64,000 bases of DNA. It comes from Bacteroidota bacterium (lineage in GTDB: Bacteria > Bacteroidota > Bacteroidia > Bacteroidales > FEN-979). Position numbers and translations under genes: made by a program. Positions 17,354 through 36,040 of the stretch are shown piece by piece (position 1 is the stretch's first letter; each line of letters begins with the position of its first letter). The notes beneath the pieces were generated by a model. That model was not told where the DNA came from and ran no database searches. It was given only the letters and a program-made list of their open reading frames with translations. The stretch spans positions 1 through 64,000 of the forward strand of contig JAPLDJ010000025.1 in the NCBI GenBank assembly GCA_026391805.1. Direction: 5' to 3'.

Positions 17354-17409
17354 AAGTTCACATAGTGTGAACTTTTACGATTTTTTTGTATCTTTGCATG
17401 AAAGTTCAC
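17354..17409 (+). promoter_or_regulatory. HigA-type operator and start-adjacent promoter
   Basis: A perfect dyad AAGTTCAC (17354-17361), 5-base centre, GTGAACTT (17367-17374) lies upstream of higB. A third AAGTTCAC half-site is at 17402-17409, inside the first codons. Between them is TATCTTTG (17389-17396), an exact Bacteroidetes minus-7 box ending one base before the ATG at 17398. Transcription would then begin at or a few bases into the start codon, giving a leaderless message. The antitoxin probably binds the dyad to repress the operon. Confidence 0.6.
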
Positions 17410-17730
17410 CTGGTAAAAAAACAAAGCATCCGGGATTTCGCCTCCTCACGGGTCGGGGCCGCAAAACCGCTTGGGTTGTGGCTTACAGCTATTAAATATG
17501 CAGACTGGAACGCTCCTGCGGATATAAGGGCAACATTTGGTTCTGCGGATCTGCTGGGGCAAGGAACTAGCCGGGTTGTTTTTAATATCGGCGGGAATAA
17601 ATTCAGGTTGATTGCAACCTATTATTTCGGGGAGGCAAATGTTCATCTTTTCGTCAAATGGATCGGAACACATTCGGAATATGAGAGGCTTTGCTATCAG
17701 GAGAAACAATATACAGTTGGTAAATATTAG
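17398..17730 (+). CDS. higB: HigB-type mRNA interferase toxin
   Basis: A 110-aa RelE-superfamily toxin of the HigB type, which cuts mRNA on the ribosome. Recognisable parts are a basic N-terminus (MKVHLVKKQSIRDFASS), WLTAIKYADWNAPADIRATFGSADLLG, then VVFNIGGNKFRLIATYYFGEANVHLFVKWIGTHSEY, the core strand pattern of the family (VFNIxGNKYRLI, then FIxWIGTHxEYD). The ATG at 17398 is preferred because it gives the family-standard MKV start. Only 9 bases separate it from the antitoxin gene. Confidence 0.88.
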   Translation: MKVHLVKKQSIRDFASSRVGAAKPLGLWLTAIKYADWNAPADIRATFGSADLLGQGTSRVVFNIGGNKFRLIATYYFGEANVHLFVKWIGTHSEYERLCYQEKQYTVGKY

Positions 17731-17739
17731 TAAAAGGAA

Positions 17740-18153
17740 ATGGAAACGCTGAAATATACGGTCATCAAGTCAATCGGACAATACAACCGGTACTGTAGAA
17801 CAATGGAATTGCTTCTCATAACCCCTGTAAAAAGTAAAGCAGTTAAGGACGAAATTGAACTGCTTTCCCTGTTGGTTGAAAAATGGGACGCCGTACATTC
17901 CCGAATGAATGATGCTGATCCGGTTGAATTGCTCCAGGCGCTGATGAAGGATCGGAACCTGAAATCGAAAGACCTGGTCAGCATGCTGGGGGTCAGCAAA
18001 GGGCTAATCTCTGATATCCTGAATTACAGGAAAGGATTATCGAAAGATATGATCCGGAGGCTGGCTCTTGAGTTCAGGGTTTCGCAGGAAGCGTTCAACC
18101 GGCCCTACAGGCTCAAATGGCAGGATGCAAAATTGCAACCCAGCTTGGTTTGA
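17740..18153 (+). CDS. higA: HigA-type antitoxin with XRE helix-turn-helix
   Basis: A 137-aa partner of the preceding toxin. The N-terminal 60 residues hold the toxin-binding helices (ELLLITPVKSKAVKDEIELLSLLVEKWDAVH). Residues about 65-125 are an XRE/Cro HTH: LLQALMKDRNLKSKDLVSMLGVSKGLISDILNYRKGLSKDMIRRLA. It should bind and neutralise HigB and repress the operon through the dyad at 17354-17374. It ends 18 bases before the convergent GH89 gene. Confidence 0.88.
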   Translation: METLKYTVIKSIGQYNRYCRTMELLLITPVKSKAVKDEIELLSLLVEKWDAVHSRMNDADPVELLQALMKDRNLKSKDLVSMLGVSKGLISDILNYRKGLSKDMIRRLALEFRVSQEAFNRPYRLKWQDAKLQPSLV

Positions 18154-20966: not shown

Positions 20967-23900
20967 TTAGTATTGTGTTTTCGTAAAATATTCATACTGA
21001 TAAAGCTTTGATATTTCATTGAACTTTTTAATAGTATCGATTTTATTCCCGATGTTTTTATTATTTAAGCTAAATCTTTCCAAAGCTGCAAAAAAGTGTG
21101 AGAATTTATCATTAAAATCATCATTAAGAAAGAACATTTTATCTATAAAGTATCGATATGATTTCCCTCCGATATGTGTCTCATACGCTGAATAATATCG
21201 TTTAACAGCCATTTCAGCATGATAGACGATTGATTGTGATTCAAGCGCGTCATGGTCCATCCAAGACATTAAATATCCTTGAAGTGTATCACTCAAATTA
21301 TTAAATAAATTATCGTAATTGATAACTTTAGGTAATGAAAGAATCTTCGGATCATTTATAAACCTTGGTTCGTAAATGAATTGCGAATTGCTCTCTAATG
21401 CTATATACCATATTGACCAAAATAGCATTTTTTCATGTGCTGCACCAATAAATGAATTATTTAATATATACGATCTACCATAGGCATTTGAGATTTCTAT
21501 TATTTCATTCAGGCAATACATTGAATCCGATATTAAATGGCAAAACAATTCTGATATCCGTACCATTTTAAAGATATTAGGATCATTATCATCCATTAGC
21601 TTTATTTCGTCATTTAAGAAGAAATATTTATAATTGGTTGCAATGATTTTTAAATATTCCATATACCAAAAACTGGTATCCCCGCCTTTAGGTATTGTTG
21701 AATTCCTTTCATTAAGTTTTAATTCATTTAAGGGCATAATGTCCTCAATGTTTATATTAAAACAATGGGAAAGAAGTTGTTTAAACAATCTGAAATTTAA
21801 TTTTACTTTATAGTTTAATCGTGAGATCCGGTTGATGATTGTGTCAGTCTCACTATACGGTGATACCAGATTCTTAAGATACAATTCGGGGACTAACCCT
21901 TTGAAAACCATTCCAGCATTACTATCCATGAATTCAATAGGATTATTGATAAAATTAATATCCCAAACCAACATCTTTATTTCACTGAAAAGCAAATTGA
22001 TCTCTTCAACATCACTGTTTACTGAACTTCTATTCAATGAAGCCTGTCCTGGGTTGTCTAAATCATAACTTATGTTCCGTTTTTGTTTTGAAACTTCATT
22101 CATATGGGCATTTTCATAAGATGCCCAGCAACCCCGAATTGCTTTTCTGACAATATTCATTTCACAATTAGTAAGCATGTTTTGTAAATTGACTTGCATT
22201 GCTAAATTATGATTATGTATTGTAATGTTTTGCAGAAACTCTTTTAGGATATACAATATTTTGGTCAATTGCCAGATATACCCTTTCATATCATTCGCCT
22301 TCTTGTACATCTTGGCAGAAAAATAATATTGTTGAATTATTCCCGTAAGTGAAAAACTATAAGGTTGCGAAACACCATCCGTCCCCGGTTTGGGATTCTC
22401 AAGAAACTTAAATATATCTTTTATATCCGTATCGAAATAATTCATCCGATAACATCCAAATTGAGCATCTGCAATGTCAGAGATAAGCCCTCCCAAAATT
22501 CGGATTGAAGTATGAGACATTGTAAATAAAGCTTCATAATGATCTATTAAGAAGTTATAAGTTGAAGTAACTGATTGAAGCTTGTCATAACCGATACTAC
22601 TACCATTAAAAGTATTTATGGTATATAATCTTAGGCTGTATAAATAAAAACTACATGCAGCGCAATGCATCTCAGGCCCTGTAACTTTTTCTAGATCGCT
22701 ATCATTTACATTATAAATTGTTCTATCCTTGAAATTTTCAATTCGATCTTTTTGATTATTAATTTCTTCGTATTCTAAATAATTCCATTCCTTGGAATCG
22801 CACCAATCGATAGGATTAGAAACTTTTTGCCTAGAATTTAATGAGCAATTACATGAATTAATTTTTACGCGTTGATCTTTCTTTAGTTCAACATTCCCCT
22901 TTTTAAAGAATAAAATATCACCAAGTTTATTATAAAATTCAATCTTGATCAAATATTTTTCATTTTGATTTATGGCTTTCTGCAAAAAAGCAAATTCTTT
23001 TTCAACCCTGAAAATATCAGTAGATTTTATACCTCCTAAAATACATTTCTCCATTATTTGTGTTCTGGCAAGTAGAGGTTGATATATAAGCCTTAATCCT
23101 TCAAATGATGAAATCTTCCCAATAATCTTTTCAATTAAAGGATTTAATTCGATGGTTATCCTGTTAATGAAAGTATCTTTTGTAGCAAAGAATTCATCCG
23201 AACTTGAATAATGATTTTCTCTGGGGAAGTTTTCCTGAAAAGTTCTAATTGGGTTATTCGCTTCGTTCCAATTATCACCTAGTTTGGGATCGTCAATCGA
23301 TGGGCCGACTAAGATTGTCTTGCCTTCTTTGTTTGTTTTCTCATAAAGACCAATTTCCTTCAGATTAATGTATCTATTTTTAATGAGGATAAGACAAAGT
23401 TCATTATACGTTTCGTAGGCAGATGAAAATGTTTTTCTCTTCTCAAATGCTAACCCAAGACGAAGCATGTTTCTGATCAAAATTAGCAACAAAGAAAAAT
23501 TCTCATCGGAGAATCCTTGATAACGCAACGATTGAATTGAATCCATATATTCAATGATCGAATCATTGTATTCCTCATCATGGAAATATAAATCTCCAAG
23601 TATCGTATGAACCATAGCGATTGAATGAATATATTCAGTTCGTTCTAAGGAAATTTTTTTGTACCTATCCTCAAGTCTGGTTAGTAGACTATGATAATAG
23701 TGTTTTATTGCGAGGGATTCGTCAAGGGTAAAATTGAATGAAGCAGAAGCTTCTTCAGAGACTCTAGATAAAAATGAAATTTCGTTGGACAGTCTGAGAT
23801 TAAATCTATAAGTATATAATCCAGTTAAAATGACTTGCAAATGAGTTTGTAATAAATGGTTTAAAACGTCTGATATAAATCCTCTTAATTCCGGAGTTCT

Positions 23901-26654
23901 GTTTATTTCAAGAATTTCCGGGATGTATTCTATATTTCGCCAGGAAAAACCGTCTTTATGAAATTTAAGAATGTGGTCGAAAAGAAATGTGGCAGAAACC
24001 AACAACTTATCACCGTAGTTTTTTATGTGATTACTTATTGAAAGTATTATTGGAAGTGTTATATAATTTATGACTCCAAGCTCATGTTGATGGTTATAAT
24101 TAAAAACCAAATAGGGATTTTGCCTGTTTTGGGTCCATTTAGACTCATAAAGGGAGATAATCATTTTTGGTTGTTCCTCCTTTTTCTGGAATCCAATTTT
24201 GTTTTTATATTCAATTTTCAGGGAAAGAAATTCAATAAAGTTTTCAAAATAATTTGTGATTTTTTTTGGTGCTCCATTGCTTGCATGTGTCAAGTAAATA
24301 ATAAAATGTTGAATAGTGTTGACAACTTTTTCACGTTGTTGTCTCGCTAAGATTTTATCTGCAACTGTTTGGTCATCATTCTCATTCTCATTATATTTAT
24401 CTCCGAAGCTATCTATAAGGAATTTATTGAAAGTCTGTAGTGTATATAATTCCAACCTTTCTTTTTTTTGATTTTTTTCTTTTTCCCATCTTTTAATTTC
24501 AAAATCGATATATGAAGGATGAATGATAAACTGACAAATATATTTTTCAATCATGCTTGTTATATCAGAGGGTTTACTGTCCGTTTTATCTGAAAGGAAA
24601 GAATTCACATTGATAACATCATGAAAAATACTACCCATAAAATAGTTCCTGTCTGAAATATCAGCAAGAGATGCATCATACATTTCTCGGCCTGCAATAA
24701 AAATAAATTTTGCATTGGCGTCACTTAAAAAGTATTTCAGGTTCGAAAGGAGCAGTTGTAAAGTTTGCTGCCTTTCACGGGTTCCATCTATCGTGAAGGA
24801 TGGATTTGGTTGTTTAAGTAGATTCTGAAGTCCTGTATCAGATTCTACTTTTTCTTCCGTCATCCTTGCTACATTGTAGGTATGAGTTTCTATTTTATCC
24901 AATTCATCAAATACAACCACAATATCAGGGCGAGAATAGGGAAAACGGATCTGATTTATATCATCAAGTATTTCGCTCAAATATTTTTCAATTTCCCTGA
25001 CATCAGCAAGGCTTCTCTTCTTTGTTTTTGGAGACAGGAAAGAAAAAAGATTAAAATTTGATTTTTCAGATGAGAGGGTCATCTTATCAACTGTTACTTC
25101 GGAAACAATGATCTCATTTAAATCTTTAATCTTTTTAATGATCTCTTTCGGACTTTTAGCCTGAAATATTCTGTTTAATAATAATTTTCTACATAAAAAA
25201 TAAAGACAAAGGATATAAATTAGAAAAAAGTAATCGAGATGATAAGGGATCAATGTATAAGTCATCCAATAACCATTATAATGCGAATTTATTGATGGAT
25301 TCTGAAGTGATATCCAATGTCCGAAGAGAAATCCATCTATCAATATTTTTCTCGAATAATAATAAATAAGATAAACATAAGTGTCTATAAACACAATAGC
25401 AACTGAAACCGCCGTTGCAGTTTTCTCCCACATATACTCAAGTACTGTCTTGTGTTGAAAATTAATATAAGAAGGATATTTCGTTTCATGAAATAATGTT
25501 GTAATATTATCTTGACACTCCTTATAAAGACGATCTACCTGTAAAAATGGTTTTGTTTCTTCCTGCCGAATCAAGAAAACCGAATCCTGAGACCGAAAAT
25601 ATTGATTGAATCCAATTTGGGTTTTAATTACATTATGTGCCCGGAAAACTGCAGGTTGATAATAAATGAGGTAAGTCATTGTATAGATAAAATAAAAAAT
25701 AACCAGCGAAAGAATAACCCTTGCAAATGTTTTCGTTCTGTAATATTTAATCAATTCTGTTTTCAAATTGCGAGCCAATAATTTTAAAATATCAACTTCT
25801 CTCAACTTGGTATGGCCTAGGTTAAGCTTAATAAATATGTTCGTTCGAAATTTTAAAAAACCTGTAAAGAAACTTCTCCAATTATCTGTACTTATAGTTG
25901 TATTAAAATTTTTATACGCGGAAATAAGGTTTTTACCAATATTTATTATCAACATTGAGTAATATGGGATACAAAGCCAGGTTAAATATGAGTAAGAAGA
26001 TCCTTGAGTGTTACAGATGAAATATATTAAACAGAACATAATGGGTATCAATGTCAAACAATACCAGGGAAGATATGCTGTAAAATATTTTTTTTCCTGA
26101 AAACTAAGATCTTTAATAAAAAATACCCGTGCTAGTATATTCAAGATCCTATCCTTAGGTGACCACCAATTCAAACGGTTTTTTATTGATATGTTTTTTA
26201 TAAAGACAATTAAAAGAGTAGCAAGAAAAAATGAAATAAAAAGTAAAAACACTGAGGCAATAATTTTTATTAAATATGGATGAAACTTAGCAATCTCGCT
26301 CATCCATTTCAAGCAAAAGAATGAAAAAAGAAAATAGAACAATGGGATTAATATATATCCGATGAGATTGCCGTTTAGAAAATTTCTCCTATTTTCAATA
26401 TCACAAATTACCTTATTTACCAAACTGGTCTTTCCCGACCCCCGATACCCAGTTATCAAATAAGCCCCGGTTGAATATTCTGCATTTGTAAAAAGGGACT
26501 TCAGTTTATCAAGTATCTTTTCTCGCCCAATAAATCTGCGGTCACCGTGTGTTTCTTCATATGGGCAATGGTAATACTGGTAATCATGTAACTGGATAAA
26601 TATCTTTTTTATCCTTGAAGAATACTCATTATGAAATTCCTTTTGTGAAGCCAT
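20967..26654 (-). CDS. giant membrane-inserted P-loop NTPase, KAP-like, 1895 aa
   Basis: The N-terminus has RRFIGREKILDKLKSLF and the Walker A loop ITGYRGSGKTSLVNK (about residues 67-81). Next come about seven predicted membrane helices (roughly 97-490, for example LIGYILIPLFYFLFSFFCL and LIKIIASVFLLFISFFLATL). Walker B follows at about 577-585, IVVVFDELDKIE, then FIFIAGREMYDAS near 650. Membrane helices inserted between Walker A and B are the hallmark of KAP NTPases. Residues about 900-1895 are helical, TPR-like in places (IHSIAMVHTILGDLYFHDEEYNDSIIEYMDSI), with a Cys/His cluster near 1265-1340. The function is unknown; KAP proteins are often found in mobile and antiviral contexts. The gene is much more AT-rich than the flanks, with no frame breaks, so it is probably intact and recently acquired. 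Confidence 0.7.
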   Translation of the reverse strand: MASQKEFHNEYSSRIKKIFIQLHDYQYYHCPYEETHGDRRFIGREKILDKLKSLFTNAEYSTGAYLITGYRGSGKTSLVNKVICDIENRRNFLNGNLIGYILIPLFYFLFSFFCLKWMSEIAKFHPYLIKIIASVFLLFISFFLATLLIVFIKNISIKNRLNWWSPKDRILNILARVFFIKDLSFQEKKYFTAYLPWYCLTLIPIMFCLIYFICNTQGSSYSYLTWLCIPYYSMLIINIGKNLISAYKNFNTTISTDNWRSFFTGFLKFRTNIFIKLNLGHTKLREVDILKLLARNLKTELIKYYRTKTFARVILSLVIFYFIYTMTYLIYYQPAVFRAHNVIKTQIGFNQYFRSQDSVFLIRQEETKPFLQVDRLYKECQDNITTLFHETKYPSYINFQHKTVLEYMWEKTATAVSVAIVFIDTYVYLIYYYSRKILIDGFLFGHWISLQNPSINSHYNGYWMTYTLIPYHLDYFFLIYILCLYFLCRKLLLNRIFQAKSPKEIIKKIKDLNEIIVSEVTVDKMTLSSEKSNFNLFSFLSPKTKKRSLADVREIEKYLSEILDDINQIRFPYSRPDIVVVFDELDKIETHTYNVARMTEEKVESDTGLQNLLKQPNPSFTIDGTRERQQTLQLLLSNLKYFLSDANAKFIFIAGREMYDASLADISDRNYFMGSIFHDVINVNSFLSDKTDSKPSDITSMIEKYICQFIIHPSYIDFEIKRWEKEKNQKKERLELYTLQTFNKFLIDSFGDKYNENENDDQTVADKILARQQREKVVNTIQHFIIYLTHASNGAPKKITNYFENFIEFLSLKIEYKNKIGFQKKEEQPKMIISLYESKWTQNRQNPYLVFNYNHQHELGVINYITLPIILSISNHIKNYGDKLLVSATFLFDHILKFHKDGFSWRNIEYIPEILEINRTPELRGFISDVLNHLLQTHLQVILTGLYTYRFNLRLSNEISFLSRVSEEASASFNFTLDESLAIKHYYHSLLTRLEDRYKKISLERTEYIHSIAMVHTILGDLYFHDEEYNDSIIEYMDSIQSLRYQGFSDENFSLLLILIRNMLRLGLAFEKRKTFSSAYETYNELCLILIKNRYINLKEIGLYEKTNKEGKTILVGPSIDDPKLGDNWNEANNPIRTFQENFPRENHYSSSDEFFATKDTFINRITIELNPLIEKIIGKISSFEGLRLIYQPLLARTQIMEKCILGGIKSTDIFRVEKEFAFLQKAINQNEKYLIKIEFYNKLGDILFFKKGNVELKKDQRVKINSCNCSLNSRQKVSNPIDWCDSKEWNYLEYEEINNQKDRIENFKDRTIYNVNDSDLEKVTGPEMHCAACSFYLYSLRLYTINTFNGSSIGYDKLQSVTSTYNFLIDHYEALFTMSHTSIRILGGLISDIADAQFGCYRMNYFDTDIKDIFKFLENPKPGTDGVSQPYSFSLTGIIQQYYFSAKMYKKANDMKGYIWQLTKILYILKEFLQNITIHNHNLAMQVNLQNMLTNCEMNIVRKAIRGCWASYENAHMNEVSKQKRNISYDLDNPGQASLNRSSVNSDVEEINLLFSEIKMLVWDINFINNPIEFMDSNAGMVFKGLVPELYLKNLVSPYSETDTIINRISRLNYKVKLNFRLFKQLLSHCFNINIEDIMPLNELKLNERNSTIPKGGDTSFWYMEYLKIIATNYKYFFLNDEIKLMDDNDPNIFKMVRISELFCHLISDSMYCLNEIIEISNAYGRSYILNNSFIGAAHEKMLFWSIWYIALESNSQFIYEPRFINDPKILSLPKVINYDNLFNNLSDTLQGYLMSWMDHDALESQSIVYHAEMAVKRYYSAYETHIGGKSYRYFIDKMFFLNDDFNDKFSHFFAALERFSLNNKNIGNKIDTIKKFNEISKLYQYEYFTKTQY

Positions 26655-27796: not shown

Positions 27797-29137
27797 ATGA
27801 AATCAAAAAAAGAAATCCAAGAAGAGATAATTTCAAGGTTTTTAACAGCGTATAAGTTTATTTATAAAAAAGAAGACAAACTAACTTTTATAACAAAATT
27901 TTTAAGGCAAGGAAAAGAATTGGATAATAAGCTGTTAAGTTCTTTCTTTAGTGGGTATAAATTTTATATTAATGAAGATTATGAAAAAGCAATAATGGCT
28001 TTTAATAAAGCCATTGAACTCGATCCGAAATTTAGTTATCCATGGAATGGTCTTGGCATAGTTTATAGTGACCTGAAAGACTATGATAAAGCAATCAAGG
28101 CCTTTAACAAAGGGATCGAACTCGATCCGAAATTTAGTAATCCATGGAATGGTCTTGGCAATGTTTATGATGACCTGAAAGACTGTGATAAAGCAAAAGA
28201 GGCTTATAACAAAGCAATCGTGCTCGATCCAAAAAATAGTCATCCATGGAATGGCCTTGGAATTGTTTATTTCAAACTGAAAGACTATGATAAAGCAATA
28301 GAGGCCTATTACAAAGCAATCGAACTCGATCCAAAATTTAGTTATCCATGGAATGGTCTTGGAATTGTCTATCGCAAACTGAAAGACTATGATAAAGCAA
28401 AAGAGACTTATAGTAAAGCCATTGAACTCGATCCAAAAAATAGTTATCCATGGAATGGTCTTGGAAATGTTTATAGTGACTTGAATGACTATGATAAAGC
28501 AAAAGAGGCTTATAATAAAGCCATTGAACTCGATCCAAAAAATAGTTATCCATGGAATGGTCTTGGAAATGTTTATTGTGACCTGAAAGGCTATGATAAA
28601 GCAATAGAGGATTATAACAAAGCAATCGAACTAGATCCAAAATATAGTACTCCATGGAATGGTCTTGGAATTGTTTATTTCAATCTGAAAGACTATAATA
28701 AAGCAAAAGAGGCCTATTTAAAGTCAATCGAATTTGAAAAAATCAATTCACATGCAAATAGAAATCTAGGATTATTACTTTTCAATAACTTAAATGCAAA
28801 TGATGAGGCAATTAAGTATTTTCAAAAAGCAAAGGAACTATTTGAAAATGAAGGGGATAATTATTATGTTTCCGTTACTCAAAATAATATCAACTCAGTC
28901 CTTGAGGCTATAAATCTTGAAAAACAGATTGAAAAAGAAAAGACCAGCAAAGAAATAAAGGATCCTTTATTTGATATACTTCGAAAAACAGAAGATTTTG
29001 AAAAAGAGATTTACGAAAAGCAGAAAAAATTTCTGTCTTTTGTTGAAGATCAAAAACCTATAGTAGATGATAATTGTTATATCAAGGTGTTTCACATGCT
29101 CATAACGATCATACTTCCGATCTGGAATCAATTTTAA
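27797..29137 (+). CDS. TPR-repeat protein, truncated N-terminal part of a TPR/MBL gene
   Basis: Residues about 61-300 are seven almost identical 34-residue tetratricopeptide repeats (DYDKAIEAYNKAIELDPK, then SYPWNGLGIVY and a short SDLK-type turn), followed by two degenerate repeats and a helical linker to about residue 425. It ends NCYIKV and then an out-of-frame tail, VFHMLITIILPIWNQF. In the other frame the same DNA continues as VSHAHNDHTSDLES, a metallo-beta-lactamase metal site. In related proteins the two parts form one chain with about 50 residues between these points, so this gene has lost an internal segment. The TPR part may still be made and bind a protein partner. Confidence 0.75.
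   Translation: MKSKKEIQEEIISRFLTAYKFIYKKEDKLTFITKFLRQGKELDNKLLSSFFSGYKFYINEDYEKAIMAFNKAIELDPKFSYPWNGLGIVYSDLKDYDKAIKAFNKGIELDPKFSNPWNGLGNVYDDLKDCDKAKEAYNKAIVLDPKNSHPWNGLGIVYFKLKDYDKAIEAYYKAIELDPKFSYPWNGLGIVYRKLKDYDKAKETYSKAIELDPKNSYPWNGLGNVYSDLNDYDKAKEAYNKAIELDPKNSYPWNGLGNVYCDLKGYDKAIEDYNKAIELDPKYSTPWNGLGIVYFNLKDYNKAKEAYLKSIEFEKINSHANRNLGLLLFNNLNANDEAIKYFQKAKELFENEGDNYYVSVTQNNINSVLEAINLEKQIEKEKTSKEIKDPLFDILRKTEDFEKEIYEKQKKFLSFVEDQKPIVDDNCYIKVFHMLITIILPIWNQF
27977..28690 (+). repeat. seven tandem 102-base repeats encoding TPR units
   Basis: The DNA repeats with a 102-base period from the codons for DYEKAI to those for YFNLK. Copies differ at few positions, and the segment encoding PWNGLG is nearly invariant. 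This points to recent unequal duplication and makes the copy number liable to change and to assembly error. Confidence 0.8.
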
Positions 29138-30069
29138 CCCTGTTAAACAATTGTAATAAAAGAAGGAAGGGCATCGATGATTTAATTAATGAGGATACAG
29201 TAAGGTCAGATCTTGCAAAAGCGAAAGGAGTAGATATAGCATCAATAACAGAACCTGAAATTGAAAGGGCATTTCTTGAAAAATCCCCCAGGCGGAAAAT
29301 AATTCAATTCTTTCTTACAAAAAGTGTAGTAAAAAAGTTTAGCGGTATGCTGAATTCTTACGCCTCTGAAGATTATATATATCATACAATTGAAGAAGGT
29401 GATGAGAAAGAAATTATAAAAGATTTAGTTAAGGTCAAGATGATATTTGCTGCTCATGATGATATCATTTCCGACAGAGATTCATTAGGTTTTATCTTTT
29501 ACTTTCAAGATAATGTTTTAGTTTATACAGGAGATACAGGATGGAATGAAAAAATTGAACAACAATATAAAGAAGAGCGTAAAAGTTTAAAAGATAAAAA
29601 GATTATTCTGCTTTGTCATATGGGGGGATTTAAATCAGAGGAGAATAGGTATTTTGAACCTAAACAAAGGAGTGTATCATTCTACCTGCAACATTTAGGT
29701 AGGTTGGGGTTAGGAAAATTGATCATAACATTGAAACCAGACCTTTGTATTATTTCTGAATTTGGTGAAGAATTAAAAAATTTCAGGGAAAAAATATGCG
29801 ATGTATATCAGAAAGTATTTCCTGATACAAAGTTTCTTCCTGCGGATATAGGGTTGGAATATCATTTTATAACAAATAAAATAATGGCCATTTCAGAGTT
29901 GGATCTTGAAACCTACAAATTTAAAACGGAACTGACAGATCCTAAGAAAGTAAAAACCTGCCTTTTAAGAAAAGATTATTCCTTGCATTATTATAAAAGT
30001 GGTGGTGGTTTCTCTGAGAGCGATTTGATACAAGTTCTCATTGAGAATTTTAATGAAAGTACAAAATAA
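29074..30069 (+). pseudogene. metallo-beta-lactamase-fold remnant downstream of the TPR part
   Basis: Starting in the frame that reads VSHAHNDHTSDLESILTLL, this carries the HxHxDH metal motif, then AAHDDIISDRDSLGFIFYF, VLVYTGDTGWNE and LLCHMGG with later metal ligands, and LGLGKLIITLKPDLCIISEFGEEL. These belong to an MBL-fold hydrolase family often joined to repeat domains. The first strands of the fold (usually a GGGYFI and VIDPG region) are missing. The breakpoint is near 29079-29090, where the TPR frame ends NCYIKV. The rest of the frame is open to 30069, so the damage is probably recent. An assembly error across the junction is possible. Confidence 0.7.
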
Positions 30070-35875: not shown

Positions 35876-35954
35876 GTTGGGCAACGGCTGAAATTTGTTG
35901 GGCAACCGTTAACAATTTGTTGGGCAACCGTTGATGATCCGTTGGGCAACCGTT
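35876..35954. repeat. four tandem repeats of a GTTGGGCAACCGTT unit
   Basis: Units start at 35876, 35897, 35919 and 35941, a period of 21-22 bases, close to two helical turns. Each has the core GTTGGGCAAC, which is itself nearly palindromic, usually followed by CGTT. The period is not a multiple of three, so it is not coding. It looks like an iteron array or protein-binding sites upstream of the small membrane protein gene. Confidence 0.65.
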
Positions 35955-36040
35955 TTGAATTTCCCGAAGAACAATCTAACACGATCTTTTTCAATATATT
36001 AAAAATGTTTGTGTAGGAAAGTAAAATTTTACTAAAAAAA

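Follow-up and report, generated by a model that had tools for sequence, protein, structure and literature searches.

The closest described relatives of the protein discussed here are the KAP P-loop NTPases (PF07693), among them PifA, QatA, Tmn and Kidins220. Their NTPase core is related to that of the protein (hhalign 96-98%), and where KAPs bear internal membrane segments, these too lie between strand 2 and the Walker B motif. One record annotates PifA, which is a real KAP, as 'phage T7 exclusion protein', and QatA is a KAP relative with an anti-phage annotation. Tmn is presented as a KAP-family defence system, an NTPase with two transmembrane domains that is active against T2, P1, phiVi and phiX and whose defence mechanism is called unexplored (PMC11846954). 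For Tmn and Kidins220, the likeness is taken from descriptions.

STAND proteins (NACHT, NB-ARC, CED-4 and the FxSxx TPR proteins) resemble the protein in another set of features, namely a probable AAA_16/NACHT-type Walker A region, a winged-helix-like region suggested by the model, a TPR-like arm and an Arg after strand 4 that we take to be the STAND motif. In addition, the modelled core resembles CED-4 and NB-ARC in VIA-align, with Z scores of about 12 (12.2 and 12.1). However, the profile similarity to STAND is limited to the first part of the family core, and membrane segments inside the NTPase are, to our knowledge, not a STAND feature. The best structural matches of the core model are the AAA+ ATPases Orc1/Cdc6 and TnsC (Z 14.8 and 14.4), which are without membrane helices and act on DNA; the shared fold does not show a shared function. 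A further match of the core model, with Z 13.6 along 291 residues, is chain H of 8hr8, which is RdrA from the RADAR defence system. RdrA forms a ring with a partner deaminase, and no RADAR-like deaminase partner was recognised here. With Foldseek alone, the N-terminal model found no significant match in the PDB (best E 0.064).

The gene studied here was found in a stretch of 64,000 nucleotides of Bacteroidota DNA, referred to as the window. The initial annotation had suggested that it may represent an undescribed system, and 'undescribed' holds within the scope searched: none of the Pfam, NCBIfam and PADLOC models corresponds to the family, and no title or abstract opening describes it in a literature search that subscription papers mostly fell outside. 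Among 24 members, no NCBIfam match was better than 1.5e-4 and no PADLOC match better than 0.00096, with none of the eight PADLOC families listed being KAP-type. The PADLOC models for PifA and QatA do recognise real KAPs. From the alignments and profiles described below, we conclude that these proteins form a distinct family between KAP and STAND, which shares one membrane insertion site with the membrane-bearing KAPs and adds a second site and a TPR arm.

Architecture of the gene product

The open reading frame runs without internal stop from an ATG at 26654 to a stop at 20967. The chance of an open frame of such length is about 10^-69 given the local base composition, and relatives of similar length support its reality. 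Its GC content is 0.309 compared to 0.46 in the flanks, and 2-kb windows between 20 and 30 kb of the window have a GC of 0.30-0.35, forming an AT-rich island. The initial annotation had reported an intact gene for a protein of 1895 aa, very AT-rich against its flanks, with Walker motifs about 500 residues apart, about seven predicted membrane helices between them and a helical domain of more than 1000 residues behind the ATPase. All of this is borne out: the coordinates are exact, the gene lies on the minus strand and has relatives, K75 and D583 are 508 residues apart, and the helices and the C-terminal part are as detailed below. Its remark that the protein is far longer than ordinary KAPs is true with respect to 16 KAP proteins fetched from genomes and plasmids, which span 479-849 aa, but KAP reading frames on viral contigs reach at least 1306 codons among the 25 matches listed. 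The features of the gene are collected in Table 1.

Table 1. Features of the NTPase gene and of a neighbouring ORF, in window coordinates
Feature	Residues or length	Coordinates	Strand	Basis
Whole gene, intact	1895 aa	20967..26654	-	ORF reading and homologues
Walker A, GYRGSGKTS	69-77	26424..26450	-	K75 in 30/30 covered members, R71 in 29/30
Membrane insert 1 (predicted), site 1	95-269	25848..26372	-	4 predicted segments (3 at looser threshold)
Strand 2 of NTPase core, then N-L-G	270-278	25821..25847	-	Alignment and AlphaFold2 model
Membrane insert 2 (predicted), site 2	308-550	25005..25733	-	3 predicted segments, ~80 residues between the first two
Walker B, VVVFDELDKI	579-588	24891..24920	-	D583, E584, D586, K587 in 33/33
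GREMYD motif after strand 4	655-660	24675..24692	-	G655 31/33, R656 31/33, E657 30/33, D660 32/33
PKK, counterpart of NPR in KAP	796-798	24261..24269	-	K797 30/33; aligned to NPR by hhalign
Winged-helix-like region, highly conserved	831-975	23730..24164	-	Order of helices and short strands in model
C-terminal TPR superhelix	976-1895	20970..23729	-	Pfam TPR matches in members and structure model
Cysteine-rich loop in TPR part (C-N-C ... H-C-A-A-C)	1268-1334	22653..22853	-	Alignment
HsdM/HsdR fusion ORF	121 aa	27063..27428	+	PF12161 (HsdM N-terminus) 1.6e-14; PF11867 (HsdR-type C-terminus) 1.1e-13

An AlphaFold2 model of residues 1-1000, built with 32 sequences (mean pLDDT 69.9), places the strands of the P-loop core at 63-69, 270-278, 575-583, 649-653 and 679-683. 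It follows from these positions that the core has two insertion sites. Site 1 separates the Walker A helix from strand 2, and site 2 separates helix 2 from the Walker B strand. The conservation of K75, D583 and E584 in all covered members makes it likely that the NTPase is an active ATPase. The GREMYD motif presumably occupies the sensor-1 position, and the winged-helix-like region gives no match as a domain by itself. The window protein and its nearest relative, L018, are 66-79% identical at the N-terminus, at Walker A, strand 2 and Walker B, and in the winged-helix-like region and the first TPR parts. For the stretch behind strand 5, the middle and the C-terminal end, identity is 42-55%. Insert 2 stands at 48% and insert 1 at 33%, the lowest among the regions compared.

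Membrane segments are concentrated between the two Walker motifs. In the window protein, a hydropathy scan predicts seven there at a threshold of 1.6 and six at 1.4, and the AlphaFold2 model has helices in this interval at low confidence (pLDDT ~39-61 in insert 1). The same holds for the 30 members that have both motifs, in which the interval from Walker A to Walker B holds 128 of the 133 predicted segments (149 of 182 at a looser threshold), a density of 10.0 per 1000 residues compared to 0.13 outside. The two sites are filled differently. Site 2 is occupied in 30/30 members, each with one to three predicted segments, and site 1 is without segments in 7/30 and holds two to six in the other 23. 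Two of the smaller relatives, the Croceitalea L028 and Dyadobacter L042 proteins, carry their predicted segments at site 2 alone. The number of segments at site 1 is even in 18 of these 23, as expected if hairpins were added in pairs. On the strength of these predictions, we infer that the family protein is localised to a membrane.

The C-terminal part is helical and was modelled as a TPR-like superhelix (residues 840-1895, mean pLDDT 71.1, pTM 0.80). It matches the TPR domains of LGN and KLC with Z scores of up to 15.2 (LGN), a value near that which helical models often reach by chance according to the tool's own note. Pfam TPR models match several members, with TPR_2 found in 8/24. In a loop of this part, 19 of the 31 covered members have a CxxC followed by an aromatic residue or Lys, and 17 of these 19 have at least two further Cys upstream. 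The loop is probably a zinc site, judging from this pattern. No effector domain is recognisable in the protein.

Proposed mechanism and gene neighbourhood

The reading that we favour, while stopping somewhat short of calling it probable, is that of a membrane-embedded signalling NTPase of the KAP/STAND group, in which the TPR arm senses a trigger and the membrane bundle acts, plausibly in defence. A cytoplasmic ATPase core would be interrupted at two points by transmembrane hairpins and, since the hairpins are placed within the core, a nucleotide-driven change of the core would have to move the membrane helices directly. The winged-helix-like region would lock the core and, together with the TPR superhelix, hold the NTPase off until the TPR arm binds its trigger. 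Once ATP is bound and the protein oligomerises, the membrane bundle would be rearranged or opened, which in turn may cause cell damage or an alarm signal. Metal binding, autoinhibition, oligomerisation, membrane action and the role in defence are all elements that we infer. P-loop ATPases rarely have membrane helices inside them, and in this family the predicted set ranges from a single segment or hairpin up to eight segments, with the same catalytic core in each case. This natural variation provides a ready test series for the coupling between nucleotide state and membrane.

Defence seems the likeliest single reading of the biological role, because the KAP relatives PifA, QatA and Tmn are known or annotated to act against phages; patchiness and AT-richness fit other accessory roles too. 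If defensive, the family would add one that the PADLOC library does not see. The initial annotation had suggested an antiviral system, for which the surroundings of the homologues offer no clear backing. Near 18 homologues, 71 PADLOC models were matched by 108 ORFs, compared to 59 models by 107 control ORFs (one 3045-aa control protein was left out for its length), so that defence genes are not clearly enriched beside homologues at these 18 loci relative to control regions. Among the matches listed, those near homologues (25 of 71 models) take in methyltransferases, a CARF-HEPN protein and an RtcR-type protein, and those in the controls (25 of 59 models) take in KwaA/B, PtuB and AbiLi. One neighbour of a homologue matches the PADLOC model CARF_HEPN_mCpol at 1.5e-214, and one matches an RtcR-type CARF regulator model at 1.2e-88.

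Another account, unlikely in our view yet deserving some weight, is that of a membrane scaffold or receptor-type NTPase, comparable to eukaryotic Kidins220. ATP would here be used to assemble proteins at the inner membrane, in a role unrelated to phages. This would suit the very large TPR-like surface, the clustering of phyla on the tree, the Xylanibacter copy, which seems to lie among envelope and polysaccharide genes (names assigned by eye), and the Nitrospirota copies, which include magnetotactic bacteria. It would also suit the presence, in 8 of 24 loci, of a short-gap neighbour of 150-450 aa with one to three transmembrane segments, compared to 6 of 45 large control ORFs (Fisher p 0.06) and 22 of 152 control ORFs of at least 200 aa. 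However, of the eight loci, L031, L032 and L048 are close kin, and the downstream flank of L048 is only 61 bases long (7/23 without it). The adjoining small membrane proteins are possible partner subunits, with an excess over controls that does not reach significance. Further points against a scaffold are that fewer than 1% of the sampled genomes of the class and order carry the gene, that it has no fixed partner gene, and that it is AT-rich compared to its flanks. With respect to partners, no neighbour family recurs across loci except common types and those of close kin; response regulators are found near the gene in 7/18 loci and 4/18 controls, and TPR proteins in 5/18 of each. With respect to composition, the GC content of the family gene is lower than that of the flanks in 24 of 27 loci, in 23 of them by more than 2 points, with a mean of 8.2 points. 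The longest ORF of 18 control regions from the same genomes has a GC content below that of its flanks in only 2/18 (Mann-Whitney p 2e-7, with relatedness ignored).

By eye, the adjoining small proteins combine membrane segments with apparent coiled coils. They are encoded at 8727-9989 in L019, 8678-9910 in L200, 9302-9979 in L031, 9306-9986 in L048, 1355-1948 in L032, 14331-14984 in L028, 15575-16555 in L030 and 15698-16234 in L033. Those of L031, L032 and L048 are alike; the others are unlike in sequence.

The membrane-embedded signalling NTPase favoured above can be taken further, to a membrane counterpart of the resistosome, a version that is speculative and on the whole doubtful. It would be a KAP/STAND-type immune switch whose effector is the hairpins at the two core sites and not a fused domain. 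If true, a zinc-bearing TPR arm would bind the trigger, and assembly driven by ATP would lead directly to an open membrane pore. In that case the family would link KAP to STAND NTPases. Site 1, the least conserved part of the protein, where hairpins grow in pairs, would be its evolving, pathogen-facing element.

Relationship to KAP and STAND NTPases

With the inserts cut out, hhalign relates the family core to 16 KAPs at 98.1% over 274 of 375 core columns, to KAP at 96.4% over 178 columns under slightly different settings, and to 53 KAPs at 97.9% (E 6e-13, 200 columns). With the inserts kept, the values are 95.9 and 96.3% for KAP and 93.0% for STAND. Against 8 STAND proteins, the family scores 95.9% over 146 columns, a first comparison with 3 sequences (73%) having been too shallow. 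At similar alignment depth, the scores are 81.7 for KAP and 78.4 for STAND, a near tie, and the KAP and STAND profiles are kin to each other at 91.6-97.0%. As a negative control, the TPR part of the family gave 0.1% with KAP. AAA_22 was also considered as nearest kin and rejected (hhalign 0.2%, with an AAA_22 set that consists of the longest frame per locus and may be poor).

Pfam searches do not place the protein within KAP. No PF07693 (KAP_NTPase) match was reported in the window protein at E<=10, with search filters that drop most matches above about 0.1, and the model is weakly matched in 5 of 24 members (best 0.0052), compared to 3e-43 and 6e-56 for real KAPs run as positive controls. AAA_16 is reported in 24/24 members, and NACHT, nSTAND and TPR models are also matched. 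In the window protein, AAA_16 reaches 31.3 bits against a cut-off of 32.6, over residues 40-100 only, and 34.3 bits in a genome-wide search.

The family further differs from KAP at three positions of the core. These were counted in the 53 KAPs that have both motifs by the patterns used, out of 79 candidates (16 fetched proteins and 63 viral-contig frames). The Walker A Trp of 51/53 KAPs is an Arg in 29/30 family members, the Arg that follows DDLD in 53/53 KAPs is a Lys in 33/33, and the Arg of the NPR motif, present in 53/53 KAPs, is a Lys in 30/33. Additional differences are the second insertion site, with zero to six segments, and the TPR arm of about 900 residues. A predicted segment between the Walker motifs is found in 6 of the 53 KAPs, in all six after the strand-2 Trp motif and therefore at site 2, and is absent from the other 47; one of the six (L260) is doubtful, its segment being the Walker B strand itself. 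Eleven further KAP_NTPase matches, inspected by eye and by hydropathy, yielded none that was useful as a membrane-bearing KAP.

These data bear on the possibility of a true KAP NTPase that is merely enlarged and functions as Tmn or PifA do, which we regard as improbable. The kinship to KAP does extend over the largest number of core columns (274, and 291 at 96.5% with the QatA-type subset), and the membrane segments lie at the same site as in membrane-bearing KAPs. Against this stand the Pfam results, the near tie with STAND, the 76.4% obtained with the PifA-type subset alone, the replacement of the KAP Trp and of both Arg residues by Arg, Lys and Lys, the extra insertion site 1 and the STAND-like TPR arm. 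The initial assignment to the KAP type is therefore retained for the topology, as the segments of site 2 are placed as in membrane-bearing KAPs, and for the profile kinship. Plain KAP membership is given up, with PF07693 unreported, the Trp and Arg positions changed and the STAND kinship nearly equal.

Distribution and surroundings of the gene

An alignment query built from three proteins gave matches at 37 loci of genome contigs. Of these, five weak ones (L050-L054, E 8e-7 to 3e-5 over short stretches) were left out of all counts, leaving 32 related loci, most of which belong to Bacteroidota or Nitrospirota and a few to other phyla. When genome and viral contigs were scanned with single sequences, nothing was found, the family being met in genome contigs only by the alignment query. 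The family is rare, occurring in less than 1% of the sampled genomes of its class and order. In the class, relatives were found in 2 of 394 genomes other than that of the window (G199 and G307, whose copies are L039 and L035; L015 and L016 duplicate these, and L017, which spans two frames and has a stop, was excluded). The search of the order gave matches at E<=0.001 in 8 of 393 genomes, the clear ones being the window's own, G199, G603 and a fragment in G736 (3 of 392 others). The copies of G603 and G736 and loci L199 and L200 stand outside the counts of 33 and 30 members, L199 and L200 being inside the 24-locus neighbour count.

The 33 aligned proteins, the window's own included, comprise 20 from Bacteroidota, 5 from Nitrospirota (including Candidatus Magnetobacterium casense), 3 from Pseudomonadota, one each from contigs labelled Ignavibacteriota, Calditrichota and Bacillota, and 2 that carry no group label, one of which is the window protein. 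Its nearest relative, L018, comes from a Lake Pavin MAG that appears to be G777, a genome of the same family as that of the window and of another genus. It is 54% identical in the best segment, and the match spans residues 6-1894. The two proteins pair on the tree with a support of 100/100. The tree has long branches and 8 open forks and was used only for this pairing and for the clustering of phyla. The phylum labels need 5 changes, the least possible; frequent transfer across phyla is therefore not supported, and most spread between phyla, if any, was not recent. The exception is L043, on a contig labelled Pseudobutyrivibrio (Bacillota), which on the tree lies beside a rumen Bacteroidales. 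Its copy is very close to that of L033, a rumen Bacteroidales, reflecting either a recent transfer or a binning error.

Some genomes have two copies (G807 and G820). Broken copies with internal stops are seen at L017 (G307:C160) and in a fragment at G736:C25:55658-56419, which indicates that the gene is lost as well as gained. Patchiness, AT-richness and absent synteny are compatible with horizontal gain, and the clustering of phyla speaks against frequent recent transfer between them. An empty site could not be read from sister species because the flanking genes are missing from most relatives, the first being present in 1 of 9 other genomes (in pieces) and the second in 0 of 9.

The initial annotation had also raised a mobile-element system, and a selfish or mobile-element gene for plasmid or phage maintenance or exclusion, stranded on chromosomes, would account for the patchy and AT-rich occurrence, the lack of synteny and the double and broken copies, but is highly improbable in view of the clustering of phyla, the lack of a tRNA in the window and of a convincing att-like repeat at the island, and the outcome of searches that, at the sensitivity they had, met no family member among 50,697 phage records and 72,556 plasmid records or when viral contigs were scanned by pattern. 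The alignment query likewise found no family relative in viral contigs, where the same tool found KAP relatives at 64 loci.

In the window, an unrelated gene of 748 aa follows 548 bases downstream on the same strand. The dead restriction genes that had been reported beside the NTPase gene are confirmed in small measure, by one 121-aa ORF that fuses HsdM and HsdR ends (Table 1). It is read as a putative scar of a deleted type I restriction operon, divergent from the NTPase gene. Beyond it, at 27797-30069, a TPR gene that carries a 102-base repeat in tandem (seven overlapping copies) continues into a metallo-beta-lactamase-like ORF. What we take to be the metal motif of this ORF is found almost at the beginning of the frame, which may mean that this second gene is truncated or that the pair is frameshifted. 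On the other side, at 17386-18153, a small ORF is followed by a Cro/C1-type HTH protein, a pair that we assume to be a putative HigB/HigA toxin-antitoxin system. Finally, a short tandem array with a 22-base unit, GTTGGGCAACCGTT..., is found at 35892-35962.
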